A DNA stretch of 64,000 nucleotides. It comes from Acholeplasmataceae bacterium. GTDB taxonomy: Bacteria; Bacillota_I; Bacilli_A; Acholeplasmatales; Acholeplasmataceae. The position numbers and the translations under genes are program-made. The notes below the pieces were generated by a model. The model had not been told where the DNA came from, made no database searches, and saw only the letters and a program-made list of their open reading frames with translations. Positions 5,993-61,551 of this stretch are shown piece after piece. The DNA lies in the NCBI GenBank assembly GCA_023230825.1, contig JALNWO010000001.1, forward strand, positions 124,001 to 188,000, in the 5' to 3' direction. The first letter of the stretch is position 1; every line of letters starts with the position of its first letter.

Positions 5993-6859
5993 TTAGAAAT
6001 TTTGTTGTTGTTGACCAACACGCTCCACACCTCGTGCATAGCCTTCACGGAGTGCTTGTACATCAGAGCTAATAGAATCAATAAAGCTTGTACGGAATGC
6101 TGGGTTAGCACCTAAGGTATTAATATTCCGGAGAATTCCTTGTGCTAAGGTATCAACACCTACACCGTATTGCATGATACCACCGAACTCGATATCTAGG
6201 TTACGGGTTTCCATTGCCGAAGTAATTTCACGACGACCTAAGATATCGCCAGTACTACGTGGGAAAAGGTTAGTTACTAAGAAAGCTTGAACTACGTTTG
6301 CCCAGTGTGGATCAGGTTCAATAAAGAGCATGGTGAACGTGTAGTTATCTGGTAACCAGTCTGCGATGTTACGACCACCTGGGAGTGTAGACACACCTGC
6401 CACTTTGGAGTCTTCGTTCATCATCAGCATCTGGATATAATAACGCCAGAAACGACTCGTCGCCATCCCATATCGATCGATCCAGGACATGGTTACGTTA
6501 GTCTGAGCAATCGTCACGTTAGTGAATTCATGCTGGACCTGACCACCGCCACCAATAGCATGTTCAGCTGTCTCAACGGTCAGTGTAGCATTAAGACCGT
6601 CAATTCGCATTGCTTGTTCTTCTACTAGCTGCCGTAGTGTACCACGTAGAAACTCAGGCTCAGGACAATAGTCAAACCCTCGTGGCGCTTCCATCAGAAT
6701 AGGAATGAGCGGACGACCAACGTGCGCAGCATTACTAATCCAGTTAGGAAGGTTATTTGAATAACCCATTTGACCTGGTAAGGTTAAGTTTACCATGGGT
6801 GCATAGGCTAAACGAGCATAACCAACTCTGTTCTTCAGAATTTCTTCATCATTACGCAT
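5993..6859 (-). CDS. Probable tail tube protein, 288 aa
   Basis: It directly follows the tail sheath gene on the minus strand (69-base gap), the usual place for the tube subunit in contractile-tailed phages. Length fits the larger tube proteins of phiKZ-like phages. Visible segments include a beta-rich centre (NATLTVETAEHAIGGGGQVQHEF, read as two adjacent strands) and a Gln-rich end (VGQQQQNF). The tube forms the inner channel of the contractile tail. The call rests on position, size and general resemblance, not on a catalytic motif; another virion protein remains possible. Confidence 0.7.
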   Translation of the reverse strand: MRNDEEILKNRVGYARLAYAPMVNLTLPGQMGYSNNLPNWISNAAHVGRPLIPILMEAPRGFDYCPEPEFLRGTLRQLVEEQAMRIDGLNATLTVETAEHAIGGGGQVQHEFTNVTIAQTNVTMSWIDRYGMATSRFWRYYIQMLMMNEDSKVAGVSTLPGGRNIADWLPDNYTFTMLFIEPDPHWANVVQAFLVTNLFPRSTGDILGRREITSAMETRNLDIEFGGIMQYGVGVDTLAQGILRNINTLGANPAFRTSFIDSISSDVQALREGYARGVERVGQQQQNF

Positions 6860-6928
6860 TTTTCATTCTTACCTTGTTAACACTCCTCCCTTATTAGAGA
6901 GGAGCAGTCTGTTTATCTCGTTATTTAG

Positions 6929-9049
6929 TTAAGCCCGAACACCTTGATCGGCAGGAGCATCTACAATACGGAAGCCCTCAATCGAGTACGTACCGACAGT
7001 CTTCATAACACCTGCGTAAAGCTTGATATTCGTCTTCCAGCTAAATCCACGTTGTGCATCTCGACCAGTAATTGTCGACTCAGGAATAATAATGACACGA
7101 TCATCGAATCGACCTACAACATTCTCACGAATCTCTCTATCAATAGAGTCACAGAGTTGCTGGTCAGTCATCTTCGAAATACCGGTATGATTACGCCAGC
7201 TTTGCTCTGCTACAGTTTCTAGTTCAGCAACAATGAAAGCATTGATCATGCTAGTGAAGATAGAAGTATCGTTAGGATAAACGGACTTATACGCAGGAAT
7301 CATTACACGCTTAGTATCGTAGGATTGAACAGTCATCAGACCTGCATCCCAATCTTTGTTACGTGCAGTAATAGGCGTAAAGGTAACGTTGATCTTAGCA
7401 AACGTATCTACAATATGGTTAGGTGGCTCTGGATTAGCAGTACCTTCCCAGAAACCATTACCTGCACCCATATAGGCAGCAAACTTAGAAGCCAGTTCAA
7501 TAGTCAGTGGTAAATTACCCCGCCATTTATCTTCTAAGTACGTACCACTTCGACCCATGATGTGAGCGCGGAAGGTAGGCGTTCCAAATACGTTAGATTC
7601 AGGGAACATCAGTGCGCGAGTTCGAATAGAGATCGCTAAGGAGTTCTCTTGAGAAGAAGTCAGCACTGGTCCTTGAATATCAAACGGCGTAAGGATAACG
7701 TTCGTATTCTTACGCAGAGCGATAAACTTAAGCATCTCATACTTCGTATCCAGTGAGAAGCCTGTATCATAAAGAACAGATTCTACGCGACGAGCAGTAT
7801 CTTGCAGATGAGAGTTGGGATCACCATATTGACTAAAGAATTCCCGAGCCAGTAAATCAAACGTCTGAGCAGTCATCGTACCATCACCACCACCACGAGC
7901 ATACTGAACACTATTCTCAGAGAGAATAACTGCGTCAGCATTACTGCGATCGATTTGGTAGGAGTAATAAGGTACACCAGTAGAAGTGGTTCCACCGATA
8001 AAGTTAAAGACGTGTTCTTCATCACTACCGTCATTACGGAAGTCAGAGAACAGAGCTGGCATTAAGTTAACTTCAGCTTCATAGAAATCTTTAACTAAAG
8101 TATCGATATAGTTCGTATAGATATACTCGTTACCAAAAGGACCAATGGTATCTGGTAACTGAGGATCACCTTTACGTTCCCAAGCAGGAATGAATAGATC
8201 ACCTACGAAGATATCTTGATCTAAACGACGTGAGTAAGCATCGACTTTAAAGCATCCATCAATATATTGTTCAGCTGATAAAGTTTCAACAATTTTTGGG
8301 AGCGTGTATTCATCACGACGCTCTAAGCATTGGAAGCGATATGGGTAAGCCCGTGCTTCTTCAATGATAGTTTGGTCTACTGGAATAGAACTACGAGTAG
8401 TAGGTGCATAAATACGAGCACCAATGTTATTACCATAAGCACCAAAATCCGACACCCGAAGGTCACGAATTGGAAACTTACGAGATTGAGCGCCTGTAGA
8501 TACATCGACTTGCGCACCGTTACCGATTGTACCTTTACCAAACATGTCTTCATTAGTAACAGGATCTGGTAGAATCTCTTCTGCCACCATCATGACTTTA
8601 AAGCCAGGTACAGTATCACCCGTTTCAACAGGTAGATTGGTCACAGAGTCATAAACAATACTACCGTCTTCAGCATTACGTTCATAAAGCGGAATGTCTG
8701 TTTCTAATACGTCTAAAGAAATACGTAAAGTTGCTGGATCAGGAGCATCGGCAGGACGCAGTCGCTGATACATTTGTGAAGCGTTGCCACGACGCTGCAT
8801 GGCGTTCGAGACGATTAAGTGGTGTTGCGCGTATTTACTACGCACATCAAAAGTTTTGCTACCAAAGATAACTTCCCTACTTGCTCCGCTTGCTAACACA
8901 CCCGTAGTAGGACCACGTTCTGCAAAGATGACAGTCAGTGGGCAGTGAGTAGGGCGCTGTTCCGGCTCCAGTACAGGTACAGTGGTAGAACTGTCCTTAG
9001 TACCTTGTAATAGCGCCAGAGGCGTAGCATTGATAATTTCAGTGCTCAT
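6929..9049 (-). CDS. Tail sheath protein, 706 aa
   Basis: Length and layout match phiKZ-type sheath proteins (phiKZ gp29 is about 700 residues). The C-terminal third has the sheath signature layout: a domain with FNVTFTPITARN-type strands, then helices (MINAFIVAELETVAEQSW), then a closing sheet region ending SIEGFRIVDAPADQGVRA. The sheath contracts around the tube to drive it through the host envelope. The gene sits just upstream of the tube gene on the same strand, and an imperfect CTCCTC / GAGGAG stem (6883-6904) lies between them, perhaps modulating their ratio. C- and G-richer codons suggest high expression. Confidence 0.85.
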   Translation of the reverse strand: MSTEIINATPLALLQGTKDSSTTVPVLEPEQRPTHCPLTVIFAERGPTTGVLASGASREVIFGSKTFDVRSKYAQHHLIVSNAMQRRGNASQMYQRLRPADAPDPATLRISLDVLETDIPLYERNAEDGSIVYDSVTNLPVETGDTVPGFKVMMVAEEILPDPVTNEDMFGKGTIGNGAQVDVSTGAQSRKFPIRDLRVSDFGAYGNNIGARIYAPTTRSSIPVDQTIIEEARAYPYRFQCLERRDEYTLPKIVETLSAEQYIDGCFKVDAYSRRLDQDIFVGDLFIPAWERKGDPQLPDTIGPFGNEYIYTNYIDTLVKDFYEAEVNLMPALFSDFRNDGSDEEHVFNFIGGTTSTGVPYYSYQIDRSNADAVILSENSVQYARGGGDGTMTAQTFDLLAREFFSQYGDPNSHLQDTARRVESVLYDTGFSLDTKYEMLKFIALRKNTNVILTPFDIQGPVLTSSQENSLAISIRTRALMFPESNVFGTPTFRAHIMGRSGTYLEDKWRGNLPLTIELASKFAAYMGAGNGFWEGTANPEPPNHIVDTFAKINVTFTPITARNKDWDAGLMTVQSYDTKRVMIPAYKSVYPNDTSIFTSMINAFIVAELETVAEQSWRNHTGISKMTDQQLCDSIDREIRENVVGRFDDRVIIIPESTITGRDAQRGFSWKTNIKLYAGVMKTVGTYSIEGFRIVDAPADQGVRA

Positions 9050-42039: not shown

Positions 42040-43947
42040 ATGAGTCAACAAGATTCTGTTCGCTGGGGTAATACGCCTGAGTCTAACCGGCCTTCTGCAG
42101 CAGGTCAGGAAACAAATGAGAAAGTTCTCGCTAGTGATCAACTCGGACAAGAGCGTTACAATCCAGACGAACTGGGTGTTGGTATCTTTGGCGCAGGAAT
42201 GCAGATGTCGTTCAACTCTGGTTCGGAAATTCTCTTCCGTGCCAAAGAAGCACTCGATGCCCAGGTTAAGAAAGCCTCTGAGCAACTGCGTCGTGAAAAT
42301 CAGATCAAACTAACCATTCTAGACCGTAGTGAGCATAAACGCCTTCCTTACAGCGCTCTGGTTCTTTCCCTGACCAATCCGCTGGTAGCTAAAGGTACAT
42401 CGTTCTTCGTCTTCGTTATTGCTGGTGATCAAGGTGCGATCGTCCGTAATGAAATTCTACCTAATAACCAAGGTCAGTGCGAAACGCTTTCCTTACCTGC
42501 TGATGCACTGAACCAAGTCATCAAAGAAGCAGGAGAAATCCTACGTGGTTTGAATCCTGGTGTAACAGATCTCTTCTCGGCTTCGGGTATTGTTGTAACG
42601 AACGACACTTTCTCTTGGGATAGTGAAAAAGACGTTTATCAACTCCTGGCCCGTGGTTATAACTCTTGCCTAGCTGTACTTTCTAGTAAAGGTCCTCGTT
42701 GGGATGATGTTAACTTGGCAAAGGTAATGGGTTCAGAACTGGAAGTTGTTCTGCAACGCACTCGTGGCCAAGCTCAACCGCGTGACGTACTGGGGCGTCC
42801 GAAGCGTCGTGATCTGGAAGTGTCTCTGCGCACTCGTCAGGTTATGAGTCCTCAAACAGGTGATATCATCCATAAAGCAGAAACGATTGCTAGTCTGTCT
42901 GTTTATGGTGATCTGCTTTGGGGTCCGGAGACGGTTCAAAAAGTAAACCAGTTTGGACAACCTGTTGTCGAGACCAAAACCTATAAGCAGCGCGTTATCA
43001 TCACCCAGATGCGTAACCACCAAGCTTATACGTTGGGTTCGCAGCTAATGTCCTTTATCCCAGCCATTGCTCTGTTCCAGCCAAAAGCAACTCACCAAGC
43101 TTTTATCCCATCACCTGATTCTTCGATGGGTAAGTCTGATGACGTTGGTGTTCTGCAACTGGAGGCTAAGTACCATCAAGGCAATATGAGCGGTCAAGAA
43201 GCTGCTCAGCGTGTGGATGTCTTTAATAGCCCGCCTACCCTGATCAGTGACTACCTGGAGAAAATCCTCTCTGACAATATTGAAGTCGCACTTGATATTG
43301 AAGTCGGTGGTGAGGACTACCTGCATAATTCAGTACTGCTCAAAGCAGCACTGTCTGGTAGCGGTGCTTCGGGTAATAAAGACCACGATCGTGCATATAC
43401 TAAACTCGTTGAAACCATGACGGTTCTAACTAATGGTAAGTTTGCTGATTTCTGGCAAACTGGTGCACCTATTGCATTCGTAGATTCAGTTCGTGAAGTA
43501 GGTCATTTCACCAACGATGATGGTAACCTGGAAGATACTCGTCATGTGGATACTATTTCCACGATGAATAAGTTTATCGAAAACAATCCGGATTACTATC
43601 GTGTTTGGTCTGATGCTCAAGTAGCAACTAACCGCACAATGCAAGCTCGTATGCGCGACATGCGTAACGTAACTGAGTACATGATCTCGCCTCCGACTTA
43701 CACGACTCGTGTATTCCGTGTGATCCTGTCCGCAGCCTTCGTTAAAGCATATTTCGATTCCATCTCAGCTCTGGGTATTCGTCTTAACCTGGTTCTGCCT
43801 AATGAGACTCGTACTGAAGATCGTACGGGTTATGTGAGTACTTCTAGCTCTATTCAAATGGGTGTGGGTGCAGGTATGCTCAATACCTTTGGTGGTAGCG
43901 TTGCTGGTACAATGTCACCTTCCAACTTCCAACGTTGGTCTGCGTAA
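42040..43947 (+). CDS. chmA: Probable chimallin, phage nuclear shell protein, 635 aa
   Basis: The call rests on four points. The length is close to 201phi2-1 gp105 (about 630). The gene directly precedes the RNA polymerase beta' N-part gene, as phiKZ gp54 precedes gp55. It has a strong promoter motif and its own terminator. Its codons are markedly richer in C and G than most neighbours, as expected for a very abundant early protein. No enzyme motif is visible; N- and C-terminal tails are Ser/Gly-rich and flexible, as needed for lattice contacts. Chimallin forms the single-layer lattice that encloses phage DNA and excludes host nucleases. The main alternative, a major capsid protein, is less likely from position and lack of a cleaved pro-region. 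Confidence 0.78.
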   Translation: MSQQDSVRWGNTPESNRPSAAGQETNEKVLASDQLGQERYNPDELGVGIFGAGMQMSFNSGSEILFRAKEALDAQVKKASEQLRRENQIKLTILDRSEHKRLPYSALVLSLTNPLVAKGTSFFVFVIAGDQGAIVRNEILPNNQGQCETLSLPADALNQVIKEAGEILRGLNPGVTDLFSASGIVVTNDTFSWDSEKDVYQLLARGYNSCLAVLSSKGPRWDDVNLAKVMGSELEVVLQRTRGQAQPRDVLGRPKRRDLEVSLRTRQVMSPQTGDIIHKAETIASLSVYGDLLWGPETVQKVNQFGQPVVETKTYKQRVIITQMRNHQAYTLGSQLMSFIPAIALFQPKATHQAFIPSPDSSMGKSDDVGVLQLEAKYHQGNMSGQEAAQRVDVFNSPPTLISDYLEKILSDNIEVALDIEVGGEDYLHNSVLLKAALSGSGASGNKDHDRAYTKLVETMTVLTNGKFADFWQTGAPIAFVDSVREVGHFTNDDGNLEDTRHVDTISTMNKFIENNPDYYRVWSDAQVATNRTMQARMRDMRNVTEYMISPPTYTTRVFRVILSAAFVKAYFDSISALGIRLNLVLPNETRTEDRTGYVSTSSSIQMGVGAGMLNTFGGSVAGTMSPSNFQRWSA

Positions 43948-44036: not shown

Positions 44037-45410
44037 ATGGGTATTAGCTTAGTTCTTCAAAATCATGATGAGATTTATAGGGAGCAGTTACACGCTACAC
44101 CTATTCTCATAGATTTTCAAAGACTCACCGAGCATGAATATTTTAGTAAAGCATTATCAAATAAGCATCGCAATGCCTTAGCTGAGATTAATAAGCCGCA
44201 GGAAATTAACTATTTCCGAGACTCCACAATTGAAGATAAGGATAAAATTAACCGAACTTTCTATACTCGATACGTATCTGAGAAAACAAATACAGTTATT
44301 GAAGATATTCCGAGTTGTCAGTGCGGTGAATTTAATACTTATAAAAACTTAGGTTGTGTATGTAATGAATGTGGTACGATAGTATCCAGTAACCGCAGTA
44401 TGGATTTACATCCTTTAGTATGGATCGCAGCACCAGAAGGCATCCCTGCTCTAATTAATCCTACAGCTTATCGAATCATTGCCGGTCGTTTCGAGATTAG
44501 TAAATTCGATGTTATTCGTTGGATTATGGATTATAATTATACAGCACCAGGTAAAGAACCTATTGCTGTAGAGCAGTTAGAAAGAATGGAGATCCCAAGA
44601 GGAATCATTAATTTCTACCATCATTTCGACACTATTATCGAAACCTTGTTCGGTATGCGTTCTTTAAGTAAAGGACCTAATACAGCAAAGTTAGACGAAG
44701 AACTTAGAACTTTTATCAAAAATAATAGGGATAAGATTTTCTCTAAGCATATTCCAATGCCTAACAAAACTTTGCTAGTAGTAGAGAGTACTAACTTTGC
44801 TACGTATATGGACCCAAAGTTAAGTGGTATTATTGACGCACTTTGGTTGATGGTAGGAATTGATAGTGAGCACTCTAATCTCACTTTAAAGCAAAAAGAA
44901 ATGCGTGTGATTAAGGCATTAGCTCAAATTGCTGAATATCACACTGAGTCTGATAAGACTTCTTTAGCTCAAAAAGGCGGTATCTTCCGACGACATGTCT
45001 TTGGATTTAGAGCTTGGTTAAGTTTTAGGACAGTAATCTCCTCAATTACTGAACCACACAACTTAAGAGATATCTATATTCCATGGAGTACAGCAGTTAC
45101 TTGTTTTCAGTATCACTTAATAAATAAGTTAAGTAAGAGGTTAAATCCAAATACTGGAAAACGCTTTACTCCCCATGAAATCGATCTGTTTATTGAAGGT
45201 CATGTCAACAAATGGCATCCTTTACTTAGAGAGATCTTTGATGAATTATTAGCTGAGACACCAAATGGACGAGGTATCCCCTGCTTAAAGAATAGGAACC
45301 CTAGTCTTTATCGCAACTCTATCCAAAAGGTGTATATAACTAAGATCAAAGATGATATCACTGATGTTACAACAAGTATTAGTATCTTAACTGTTCGTCC
45401 CCTCAATGCT
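44037..45410 (+). CDS. RNA polymerase beta' N-terminal part, exon 1 (458 codons)
   Basis: First exon of the phiKZ gp55-like non-virion RNA polymerase subunit. ATG 44037 has GAGG six bases ahead; an in-frame TTG at 44025 is unlikely. A zinc ribbon is visible at residues about 94-112 (CQCGEFN...CVCNEC), as in the beta' N-terminus. Later, NRNPSLYRNSIQKV fits the beta' segment RQPSLHR that precedes the active centre, and the exon ends with RPLNA, the start of the invariant NADFDGD. The open frame runs on for 25 codons into intron sequence to 45488, but that tail is not conserved. With the micro-exon and exon 3 the spliced protein would be 534 residues. Confidence 0.88.
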
Positions 45411-45808
45411 AAAAAGATAAGATATTTATTAATAGATATTTTGTTATTGGCCATTACACTAGTAATAGTGTACTTGAATCCTCTCTAACTGACTGGGAAC
45501 TCCTACAACAATAGGACAATCAGCAGCGAAGCTTTGTCTTAATAATACTCAGACAAAGAACGTTCAACGATCAGAGAAACCAATAAATGTAACTCGTATT
45601 AAAAGACGAGAATAAGCTAGATATTATCTAGACGAAGGGAGTATCGTAGCGCCAAGTGGTGGGTATAACCCTTAAAGACGAAACGGGAGGCTTCCTAACT
45701 AATAGGAAGAAGATATGATCTGAGCCTTACAGTAATGTAAGGAGGGTGTCTTAGCACACCTGCTTATGAGAGCGTGTTAAAACACAACGGCATAAGTGGA
45801 CAATTCTG
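45411..45808 (+). ncRNA. Group I intron A in the beta' gene (398 bases)
   Basis: Follows a U at the exon end and ends in G, as group I introns require. Core elements are present: AACTGACTGGGAACTCC (about 45487), CAATCAGCAGCGAAGC (about 45519, Q-like), GACGAAACGGGAGG (about 45679, R-like) and AAGATATGATCT (about 45712, S-like). The end GGACAATTCTG resembles the ends of introns B (GGACATTAGG) and C (GGACAATAAG). No endonuclease gene is inside. Confidence 0.8.
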
Positions 45809-45811
45809 GAT
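45809..45811 (+). CDS. Proposed one-codon micro-exon GAT (Asp) of the beta' gene
   Basis: Between intron A ending in G at 45808 and intron B starting at 45812 lies GAT, followed by AAA. Joining exon 1 (...LNA), GAT (D) and exon 3 (FDGDELN...) restores NADFDGD, the metal-binding motif of every cellular-type RNA polymerase, in frame and with U as last exon base. A longer exon here would hit TAA. If instead 45411-46189 were one intron, the product would read LNADIRFDGDEL, losing the spacing of the first Asp. Confidence 0.6.
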
Positions 45812-46198
45812 AAACGAAGCTTTTATAGCTATACAGTCCCTTTCTTTAGAAATAAAGAAATGGTAACTTTTTGAATTGCTGGGAACCCCTTAGAGCCTGA
45901 CTCACGACAACGCAGTTGGAAACGACAAACGTGATCGTAAAAAAGAAGTCTGGATTGGGCAATCAGCCGGTAAGCTCCTAACCCTCACAATTATTGAGAG
46001 GTATGGGGAATCCTCAACGATCATCCGGTAGCGCGGAGTAGAACCCCAAGTGGGGAAGAAGCGGAAAGTACCTGACCAGGTAATGCTGAAGGTAGTGATA
46101 TGATCTATGCTCCTATGGGAAAGCCATAGGCAGGTGCCTTAGCGTACCGGCTCTTTGAGAGCGTACTTAATGTACAACGGCTTAGAGCGGACATTAGG
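45812..46198 (+). ncRNA. Group I intron B in the beta' gene (387 bases)
   Basis: A second full set of core elements follows intron A: AATTGCTGGGAACCCC (about 45876), GCAATCAGCCGGTAAGC (about 45959), GAAGCGGAAAGTACC (about 46059) and TGATATGATCT (about 46097). The 3' end GGACATTAGG ends in G directly before TTCGATGGTGAC (FDGD). No endonuclease gene. It is more diverged from intron A than A is from C. Confidence 0.75.
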
Positions 46199-46426
46199 TT
46201 CGATGGTGACGAGCTTAACTTCTCTATTATTCCGGATCAGAGGTTAGCTGAAGGACTAGAGAGACTCTCTGTTATCTTTAGTGCTTTTGATCTGACTAAT
46301 CCTCGGAGAGTGTCTGGTAGTGTAGCATTTCCTAAAACAGTACTTGCAACTATTGCTAACTACTTACACAGTAAAAAGGAAGTTATTCCAGCTATGCAGT
46401 CTAGAATGATCGAACTGTATAGTTGA
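46199..46426 (+). CDS. RNA polymerase beta' N-terminal part, exon 3 (75 codons), catalytic FDGD
   Basis: Begins FDGDELNFSIIPDQR, i.e. the second and third catalytic Asp of NADFDGD, and ends SRMIELYS with TGA at 46424-46426. It has no start codon of its own and is only meaningful after splicing to exon 1 and the GAT codon. The chelated Mg2+ carries out nucleotide addition. The next gene starts 32 bases later. Confidence 0.85.
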   Translation, partial: FDGDELNFSIIPDQRLAEGLERLSVIFSAFDLTNPRRVSGSVAFPKTVLATIANYLHSKKEVIPAMQSRMIELYS

Positions 46427-58628: not shown

Positions 58629-60558
58629 TCTCACATAGAGCCTGTTAACTATATTTAGGTATATAGTATAGGCCAATGAAATACTAGAAATTATTAACGA
58701 TCTTTTTAATTTGCAGCGTTTGGCCTGTATTTTTCTAATTTAGGAGGTCAAATGACAAAGCAGTATAAATTAGTACCGGGATCAGAGTCAGTACGTTATG
58801 ATGTAATAAATGACACTTATACTAGATTTAATCCGAAAGAAGATGGGTTTGTAGAAAAAGGTTCCCGAATAACCTTTAACTACCATAACCGAACCATCAC
58901 GGTAGATAGAGAATGGCTTCGTTTATTTACAATCTTTGAAACAAAGCTTCCCGAGCAAGTTTGGATTCATGTAGAAAAAATTAGGTTCGTAGACTGCTAT
59001 AATAAAGTACTTCGTTTACCCACCAATAAAATAATGGTGTTGGACGAATGCTTTCACTATCATCCGTATTATCGTATTGTTCCAGGCTTTACTCATCTAT
59101 TCATCAGTAAGAATGGTGTGGTAATTGATTGGACTGATAACTTTAAACCCGTTTCTATTTTAGATGATCAGTATAAAAACTTAAACATCTATGATCCTGA
59201 ACGAGGTTTTGTTAGATCAGTTCCACTACATCGCTTACTTGGTTTGGCTTGGATTAATAATGACAATTACCAAGAAAAGCCCATAATGAATCACATAGAT
59301 GGAAATAAGTATAATAATCAGCTGAGTAATCTAGAATGGGTCTCTCATCAAGAAAATAACGTTCACGCTAGTGAGGTCGGGTTAAATACCGATTCTCTAG
59401 CATGTAAAGCTCGGGATGTAGTAAGTGGTGAGGTACAAACATTCAACAGTCTTGGTCAGTTATCTCGCGCTTTAGGTGTTGGAGCAGTTAATCTGGAGCG
59501 GTTAAATACCACCCGCCCAACTTCTTTAATTGGTGACCGATATGAAGTTCGTTTATTAGGTGATGACACGCCTTGGTTATTTGATACCGTAGACGATCTA
59601 CCAAAGGTTAAAGGACGTTATCAAATCAATGTTACACATGCGAAGCAGGGTAAGTTAACTTTCCATGATGTTAGAACAGCGGTGTTTAATTTGAAATACC
59701 GTAAGACGTGGGGATGTGGTAATGTCAGGACTTTACAACAGTTCTTAGAAAAAGATCCGTATGTTCAGGATTTTGAGATTATTGATCATTATAAATACAC
59801 AGCAACAGTTCAGGCGAAAAACGTAGATACAGGAGAAGTAGTGGAAGAACCTACCTTTACTTATCTTTCTAGACGTTTAAAGCTTCAACGTAGTGCTATT
59901 AAGAAAATCCTGAATTCGGGTCAGGTACAGTGTTATCATGGCTGGTTGATTCGTTTAACGAGTGAAGATCCTTGGCCGGAAGATTATCAGATACATGGTC
60001 AGAGACGTATTAGTGTGGTAGCTAAACACAATAAGACAGGCCAATGTTTGAAATTTCCCACCCTAAGAGCTACTGCAAGGCACTTCGGGATAGATCGTAA
60101 AACCATTTCAGTTCGTATTAATAATAAAACGGACTACGATGGCTGGTATTTTGAATTGGTTTAATTTACAGGTAAGAATTTATTTGGTCTCCCTAAATAG
60201 TGATATTTAGTAAAAAACCTCTCTAACTGCGGGAACATCCTAAAGTCTTAAATTACTTCTTACTCATGGAAACGTAGAGTAATGCCTCGACCAGTAATGG
60301 AAGTTCGAGGGACAGTAAAAACATTTAAGAATATATGGGTAACCGACGCAACAAAGCTCCTAAGTCTAGAGATATGGAGTGTGTTCAACGACTATCGACG
60401 TAGCGCCTAAGTAGGTAATCGAGGATTTTAAAGCGAAACGGGAGGCCCTCAACTAGCTTAAGTTGAGGTGAAGATATAGTCTGTTCCCCAAGGAAAGCTT
60501 GGGGCGGGTGTCGTAGCACACCGGATATGTATGGAAACGATACATATTGGACAATAAG
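58629..60558 (+). ncRNA. Group I intron C in the beta gene, with HNH endonuclease gene (1930 bases)
   Basis: Starts after GGAGAT (U at the exon end) and ends GGACAATAAG. The core lies mostly after the endonuclease gene: TAACTGCGGGAACATCC (about 60224), GACGCAACAAAGCTCC (about 60344), AAGCGAAACGGGAGG (about 60432) and the textbook S element AAGATATAGTCT (about 60472). Joining GGAGAT to AAAGGTATT gives CFGD-KGII, matching beta. The same gene in phiKZ (gp71/gp73) is split by an intron with an HNH gene (gp72). Confidence 0.88.
58752..60164 (+). CDS. HNH homing endonuclease, intron-encoded, 470 aa
   Basis: Near-perfect ribosome site TAGGAGGTCAA before the ATG. The HNH signature is PIMNHIDGNKYNNQLSNLEWVSHQENN (read as two parts: MNHIDGNKYNNQ and LSNLEWV) at about residues 177-200, with the preceding LLGLAWI helix usual for this family. 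The C-terminal ~50 residues (FPTLRATARHFGIDRKTISVR) form a NUMOD1-like helix-turn-helix that binds the intron-less target. The enzyme cuts alleles lacking the intron so that repair copies it in. About 470 residues is long for phage HNH enzymes; several internal NUMOD-like repeats account for this. Confidence 0.88.
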   Translation: MTKQYKLVPGSESVRYDVINDTYTRFNPKEDGFVEKGSRITFNYHNRTITVDREWLRLFTIFETKLPEQVWIHVEKIRFVDCYNKVLRLPTNKIMVLDECFHYHPYYRIVPGFTHLFISKNGVVIDWTDNFKPVSILDDQYKNLNIYDPERGFVRSVPLHRLLGLAWINNDNYQEKPIMNHIDGNKYNNQLSNLEWVSHQENNVHASEVGLNTDSLACKARDVVSGEVQTFNSLGQLSRALGVGAVNLERLNTTRPTSLIGDRYEVRLLGDDTPWLFDTVDDLPKVKGRYQINVTHAKQGKLTFHDVRTAVFNLKYRKTWGCGNVRTLQQFLEKDPYVQDFEIIDHYKYTATVQAKNVDTGEVVEEPTFTYLSRRLKLQRSAIKKILNSGQVQCYHGWLIRLTSEDPWPEDYQIHGQRRISVVAKHNKTGQCLKFPTLRATARHFGIDRKTISVRINNKTDYDGWYFELV

Positions 60559-61551
60559 AAAGGTATTATCGTAACAGTAGTTCCAGATGAGAAAATGCCT
60601 GTTGATGATCGGGGTGTTCGAGTGGAATTTATCACAGATCCTCTAGCTACAATTGCTCGGAGTACTTTAGGTCGAGTGATGGAACCCTTTCTAAATGCTG
60701 CTGGACAGAATATTGTTAGAGAGATAGCATTAGCTCTTAATCTGAAATGGGGAACTGTAGTAACGCCACAGTTACTAGAAACTAAGAACGTTAATGGGTT
60801 AGTCAGGAAGCAGTTTGAAAAACTCAAAGACTTCTATTATACGGTATCATCTGAAAAGATGGGTCCTTGGCATGAGAATCTAACAGATAAAGAACTCTAT
60901 GAGCATCTGAGTTCTGTTATTACTCGAACCTTACCTATTATGTATAAACCACCTTCTGATGAGAAAGAGATGGTGGATATTATCATGGAAATTAATGAGA
61001 AGTATCCTCCTTATGAATCTCATATCACTTATGTAGGTAACTCTGGTAAGACCGTACGGTCTAAAGAAAAGTTTATTATCGGAAGAGCTTATGTTATTCT
61101 CTTAGATAAAACAGGAGATTCTGCTGCTGCTATTGCCTCAGGTAAATTAGGTCACTTTGGTGTTCCTAGTCAAATTACTCGTCAAGATAAATACACGAGT
61201 CCTAATCGACGACAGCATACTCGTATCTTTGGTGAAGCAGAGATGCGAATCATTGCTTCGTATTGTCCGTCTTGGGTGGCTGCTGAAATCATTGATAGGA
61301 ACTCCAATAAAGATAGCATGGGAGTTATTATTAACGGATTACTCACCACAGATAAACCAACTAATACTTTTGAGCTAATCAATAGAAAGGAGCATAAGTA
61401 CAATGGTGGTAGACCTATTCAGATCGTACGACACTTAGCACTTACAGCAGGTTGGGGTTTCCAATATAAACCTTATCAGCCTCTTTGGATGAAAGGTAAT
61501 AAAGTAAAAGATTTTGTACTAGAGAGCTTAGACAAAACAGAAGCTGTTTAA
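60559..61551 (+). CDS. RNA polymerase beta C-terminal part, exon 2 (330 codons)
   Basis: Equivalent of phiKZ gp73. Starts KGIIVTVVPDEKMPVDDRGVRV, which matches beta GNKGVI...P.EDMPYLEDG.PVDI, and continues TDPLATIARSTLGRVMEP (NPLGVPSRMNIGQILE in bacteria). A TTG at 60547 could start translation in the intron tail but gives no conserved residues before 60559. Ends near a terminator-like hairpin at 61556-61585. Residues here contact the nucleotide and the RNA end. Confidence 0.9.
   Translation, partial: KGIIVTVVPDEKMPVDDRGVRVEFITDPLATIARSTLGRVMEPFLNAAGQNIVREIALALNLKWGTVVTPQLLETKNVNGLVRKQFEKLKDFYYTVSSEKMGPWHENLTDKELYEHLSSVITRTLPIMYKPPSDEKEMVDIIMEINEKYPPYESHITYVGNSGKTVRSKEKFIIGRAYVILLDKTGDSAAAIASGKLGHFGVPSQITRQDKYTSPNRRQHTRIFGEAEMRIIASYCPSWVAAEIIDRNSNKDSMGVIINGLLTTDKPTNTFELINRKEHKYNGGRPIQIVRHLALTAGWGFQYKPYQPLWMKGNKVKDFVLESLDKTEAV

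Follow-up and report, generated by a model that had tools for sequence, protein, structure and literature searches.

Could a single codon serve as an exon between two group I introns? The question is raised by a gene in the window, by which we mean the whole 64,000-nt stretch of DNA analyzed here. The gene lies at 44037–46426 on the plus strand, as do all of its elements described below, and encodes the N-terminal half of a non-virion RNA polymerase β′ subunit, a homolog of phiKZ gp55. Its first exon (44037–45410, 458 codons) matches the gp55 chain 7ogp_A with an E value of 5.2e-64 in phmmer; of the phage records searched, Burkholderia phage FLC9 gave the best match (41.6% identity). The open frame of this exon begins with ATG at 44037 and ends with CCC CTC AAT GCT (RPLNA) at 45410, from where it runs on to a stop. 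FDGDELN begins at 46199 and opens exon 3 (46199–46426), an open frame of 75 aa that reaches the stop after intron 2. The sequence divided in this way, NADFDGD, is the metal-binding motif of β′; its restoration in the predicted spliced product, together with the homology to gp55, identifies the gene as the β′ N-half. Directly 5′ of it is a chimallin gene (42040–43944; PF25677, E 5.4e-26), in the same order as in the PhiPA3 and Noxifer records, and because chimallin is encoded in the window, we assign the DNA to a jumbo phage of the nucleus-forming type. The homologs P0002 and P0003 share 70–73% identity with the window protein. A search of both the viral contigs and the genome contigs found no relative of the window protein, and a search of the viral contigs with P0008 found none either.

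What separates the two parts of the motif? The preliminary description had read two complete group I cores back to back in the β′ gene and had proposed a search with group I covariance models; this search, when run, gave full-model matches to both introns. Rfam RF00028, whose gathering score is 50, matched intron 1 at 45417–45742 with 68.7 bits and intron 2 at 45812–46131 with 44.6 bits, a score below the gathering score that corresponds to an E value of 1.2e-9 in a 1.8-kb search. A second covariance model, R1, was trained on 12 introns from eight loci of other phages, with no window intron among them; it scored 153.2 bits for intron 2 (E 1.8e-43), 93.0 bits for intron 1 (E 1.3e-25) and 95.3 bits for a third intron of the window. 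By both models, introns 1 and 2 have the conserved catalytic core of group I introns. In a second search with R1, covering 18 sources, the matches fell in L134, L146, L043, L007 and L139, all of them interrupted loci, and there was no match in the 13 β′ loci of the same sources that have an uninterrupted motif. Furthermore, the GGACAnT..G tail of the third intron (60164–60504) recurs in introns 1 and 2, as the preliminary description had noted. A three-frame reading of introns 1 and 2 revealed short, stop-riddled frames and no homing endonuclease ORF; elsewhere, several introns at the same site carry endonucleases, for example, those of PS1 and Goslar (annotated as HNH).

Restoration of NADFDGD guided the choice of boundaries, and the intron ends were thus set by motif and frame. 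Intron 1 (45411–45808, 398 nt) would interrupt the motif at NA/D and intron 2 (45812–46198, 387 nt) at NAD/F, where the slash marks the cut. The exon before each intron ends in T (U in the transcript) and each intron in G, positions 45808 and 46198 being the terminal G of group I introns, which agrees with the pattern first described. The four junctions proposed at the outset (45410/45411, 45808/45809, 45811/45812 and 46198/46199) proved exact: spliced at these ends, the reading frame is intact, and the predicted product contains ...RPLNADFDGDELN... We think that splicing would in this way restore LNADFDGDELN. The predicted middle exon is then GAT alone (45809–45811), the first Asp of the motif, again as first suggested. 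It is the sole assignment that keeps frame and motif, in that no shift of either junction that retains both was found when the sequence was read by eye, and each of its two borders is attested singly in other phages.

To what extent is the motif interrupted elsewhere? Loci of the β′ gene were taken from phage records and IMG/VR, and intron borders were placed in 16 of them, the window included, and in three more. The cuts fall at N/A (L030; also L134), NA/D (the window, L131, L139, L188 and L190), NAD/F (the window, PS1, L029, L033, L034, L035, L040, L043, L153 and L173), NADF/D (Goslar), NADFDG/D (D3, PS1, L027, L029, L033, L034, L035, L131, L188 and L190) and NADFDGD/Q (L040), as well as just upstream of the motif (L004, L027, L035, L040 and L188) and one codon downstream of it (Goslar). 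NA/D is the only occupied site in L139, and NAD/F the only one in L153, L173 and L043. The most conserved motif of multisubunit RNA polymerase has thus been colonized repeatedly in jumbo phages: some eight positions in and around its seven codons are occupied, and one motif can have as many as three introns.

Tandem introns occur in 11 other loci (PS1, L027, L029, L033, L034, L035, L040, L131, L188, L190 and Goslar), whose inner exons measure 9, 11, 12, 13, 15 and 20 nt. Two of these loci, L035 and L040, are cut three times at the motif, and L035 has a fourth intron well upstream, at QRN, which makes four introns in ~1.5 kb (6083–7604). R1 gave no core match to the 268-nt intron that comes last in L188. 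No inner exon is shorter than the 3 nt of the window, and of the resolved loci, the window alone has NA/ and NAD/ both filled. The preliminary description had called such an exon extreme, a word that has to be seen in context: exons of 9–20 nt recur at this motif in other jumbo phages, and the accessible text of PMC10352661 describes mini-exons as common in mitochondria.

A natural plus/minus pair is provided by L134 and L135, which are 95.9% identical across 1262 bases on the upstream side and 94.3% identical across 192 bases on the downstream side; compared with L135, the endonuclease-bearing intron of L134 is a clean insertion at N/A. The L134 exon would end in C, contrary to the U rule. 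At the protein level, the motif is intact in 33 of 61 homologs (window included); in the others, homology ends after NA (6), NAD (8), NADF (1), NADFDG (3), NADFDGD (1) or elsewhere (8), and one protein stops exactly at NAD, all by script assignments of which three were corrected by hand. At the DNA level, an uninterrupted motif is absent from 8/22, 10/33, 10/35 and 0/21 loci in four sets that have contigs in common and also contain contig ends, and from 0/79 in a further set that was drawn by a pattern containing the intact motif.

Gene callers miss these interruptions. The annotated subunit ends inside or beside the motif in Goslar, PS1, D3 and LucasX. The record of Goslar, a cultured E. coli phage (L011, reverse strand), shows a single annotated intron and a subunit annotated as truncated, whereas we place two introns there, at NADF/DGDA/, with an inner exon of 13 nt. 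Since Goslar, PS1 and D3 are cultured, introns at the motif can be tested now.

How could a ribozyme find its splice site on so short an exon? We compared the guide regions (internal guide sequence, IGS) of 27 introns outside the window, a set without L139, L043 and Goslar. The motif [A/G]GTCC was found in 10/10 introns that follow GAU versus 1/17 others (Fisher p 1.3e-6), GGC in 6/7 introns that follow GCU versus 4/20 others (p 0.0042), and GC[CT][GA]T in 9/9 introns that follow GGU versus 0/18 others (p 2.1e-7); these p values overstate the case and are indicative only, because the motifs were drawn up with the sequences already in view and the introns are related to one another. LucasX is an exception to the GCU:GGC rule and carries GGGUCC. 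The two window introns conform: intron 1, which follows GCU, has GGC and lacks GTCC, and intron 2, which follows GAU, has GTCC and lacks GGC. The GGU-class motif occurs in both, by chance as we read it. In the window, PS1, L029, L035, L040 and L153, the NAD/F introns end in GG before TT.

The predicted guide of intron 1 (GGC, 45449–45451) pairs with the exon codon GCU, with U·G at the splice site. This P1 appears in the minimum free energy (MFE) fold, in which GCU/AA pairs with UUGGC and is continued by an extension stem (z −3.97). The predicted guide of intron 2 (GUCC, 45836–45839) is assigned by the guide rule and would pair with GAU, or with GGAU while intron 1 is present; its exon-end U and guide G, which follow from the same rule, are not paired in the MFE fold. 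As long as intron 1 is there, the fold leaves the exon end unpaired (z −0.70); after removal of intron 1, it pairs GCUG with CAGU in place of GAU with GUC (z −1.30). Three isolated GAU:GUC pairs amount to +0.8 kcal/mol, and four GGAU:GUCC pairs, which use the last G of intron 1, to −2.5 kcal/mol. Given the positive energy of the three pairs and the absence of the helix from the MFE fold, intron 2 would therefore require tertiary help from the ribozyme fold. A candidate P10 strand of intron 1, UUAUU (45444–45448), was read from the sequence and forms five contiguous pairs with GAUAA, that is, with the GAU exon and the first AA of intron 2 (composition resampling 0.020, post hoc). Once intron 2 is gone, only three of these pairs are left, and across introns, P10 length ranges from 0 to 8 pairs and is not conserved.

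We favor, with a probability of roughly 85%, the reading that a three-base interval separates two complete group I introns, which are spliced sequentially and leave GAT as a one-codon exon, as judged from the sequence. Each P1 would take about one exon codon (GCU against GGC in intron 1, GAU against GUC in intron 2), with U·G at the cut, and a three-base exon would therefore be long enough for a guide. Because GAU could not be in the P10 of intron 1 and the P1 of intron 2 together, the two reactions would have to follow one another. Intron 1, which would be transcribed first and could form the five-pair P10 with GAUAA, whose last two bases come from intron 2, may leave first. The order is the weakest step of the proposal, and we lean only slightly toward intron 1 first: transcription order and P10 speak for it, and P1 strength (GGAU:GUCC) speaks for intron 2 first. 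The preliminary description had gone further and suggested a forced order; this is not established, because the two signals conflict, the P10 of intron 1 favoring intron 1 first and the predicted P1 of intron 2 being stronger while intron 1 is present.

Could the GAT codon be skipped instead? In that case, GCU would be joined to UUC, GAT would leave within one composite removal, and the result would be an NAFDGD subunit, likely non-catalytic, which could be a side product or a switch. Skipping of 23- and 34-nt exons has been published for Twort orf142 and the Coxiella 23S rRNA (PMC10136302, available portion), and the loss of GAT would leave the reading frame intact, so that the catalytic Asp would be removed in frame. 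However, that Asp is kept in all 33 homologs with an intact motif among the 61. Moreover, the guide of each intron mismatches the exon codon of the other at the middle base (intron 2 GUC versus GCU; intron 1 GGC versus GAU), and because the guides are unlike at this base, skipping should be disfavored; in an engineered tandem described in the same part of PMC10136302, differing recognition elements suppressed it. We consider skipping improbable as the fate of this exon.

Is the gene instead decaying, or misassembled, so that splicing of one intron, or of both, has been lost? The window is a single record, and intron 2 falls below the Rfam gathering score. However, the flanking exons of 458 and 75 codons are open, and R1 scores the cores highly. 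Homology of P0003 (70% identity) to the window protein also stops right after NA, and multi-intron forms of NADFDGD recur in unrelated records; a damaged gene is thus just as improbable an account as skipping. A twintron, in which one intron lies inside the other, GAT is intron sequence and the Asp codon comes from elsewhere, has a model in the back-to-back group I cores of fungal cox3-640 that may leave as one unit (PMC12308204, partial text) and is the least probable reading, since introns 1 and 2 are consecutive and each is equipped with a separate 5′ guide, a full core and a GGACA..G tail, NA/D and NAD/F are each occupied singly in other phages, and no other frame-keeping join that restores NADFDGD was found. 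The candidate arrangement of one intron interrupting the other was rejected on the same grounds. Because both sites are filled singly elsewhere, the window reads as the sum of two attested sites and not as a twintron or a misread single intron.

How did the two introns come to lie side by side? Two separate invasions of an active-site hotspot would fit better than a duplication or the entry of one intron into the other, as far as sequence comparison can tell. In a core tree, introns 1 and 2 are not nearest neighbors: the nearest row to intron 1 is the AR9 terminase intron, and the nearest to intron 2 is intron a of L035, both with weak support. This tree leaves out L139, L043 and Goslar and is weak, with 5 of its 30 inner branches well supported. 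Exon-triplet labels require 11 changes on it, compared with 14.5 after shuffling (as low in 6/200), and introns that follow the same triplet thus appear to cluster slightly. Site-specific intron lineages were also considered and, as a simple picture, rejected: site labels require 18 changes, compared with a mean of 20.1 after shuffling (30/200 shuffles as low), and introns that share a site do not group in a single clade.

Some related arrangements have been described. In PhiPA3, the virion RNA polymerase β gene gp210 contains a group I intron (Birkholz et al. 2024, PMC11620839); judging from the accessible text, it resembles the window in that a group I intron lies at conserved Asp codons of a jumbo-phage RNA polymerase gene and differs in that it concerns the β subunit of the virion enzyme and a single intron with an HNH endonuclease, whereas the window introns carry no such ORF. 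Twort orf142 introns 2 and 3 enclose a 23-nt exon and the Coxiella 23S introns a 34-nt exon, both partly skipped (PMC10136302). As in the window, a very short exon is flanked by two group I introns; as far as the available portion goes, however, these exons are of 23 and 34 nt, compared with 3 nt and predicted guides that differ in the window. In mitochondria, exons under four codons are reported to occur regularly (PMC10352661), exons of 12–15 bp are known from Armillaria (mini-exon papers PMC10352661, PMC6506933 and PMC12308204), and in Ophiostoma rnl, two group II introns are separated by a 1-nt exon (PMC12308204). According to the parts of these papers at hand, such cases concern fungal organelles and partly group II introns, whereas the window concerns a phage mRNA and group I introns. 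The tandem introns of Goslar, PS1 and the metagenomic phages share the gene, the motif and the guide classes; their exons are of 9–20 nt, and none is resolved with NA/ and NAD/ filled together. Our literature search, which covered open-access rather than subscription papers, found no description there of introns at NADFDGD or of a 3-nt exon between group I introns. We would regard the tandem in the window as an extreme and new variant of an arrangement already known for group I introns.

If GAT is indeed retained, three bases suffice as an exon, the lower limit of group I exon recognition is set at that length, and the locus is a natural test of two ribozymes that share one splice-site element. 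More speculatively, the active-site codons of jumbo-phage RNA polymerases might serve as a landing strip on which single-codon guides (for GCU, GAU and GGU) allow introns to stack one codon apart. The window would then represent the limit of such stacking: its 3-nt exon GAT would be the P10 target of one ribozyme and the P1 target of the next, forcing them to take turns, and a failed turn would remove just one catalytic Asp and yield an in-frame dead subunit that could gate late transcription. We regard this proposal as tentative and, taken as a whole, rather doubtful.

Group I introns are also seen at other positions. Bacillus phage AR9 (L008 and L213) has 13 RF00028 matches, clustered in its terminase and virion RNA polymerase β genes. 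In the window itself, the region of the third group I intron spans 58752–61548. Its core (RF00028, 60164–60504, 77.6 bits) is preceded by a 470-aa ORF (58752–60164) with HNH_3 and NUMOD1 domains and precedes a frame with similarity to RNA polymerase Rpb2 domain 6 (E 4.5e-5, just under the cut-off).
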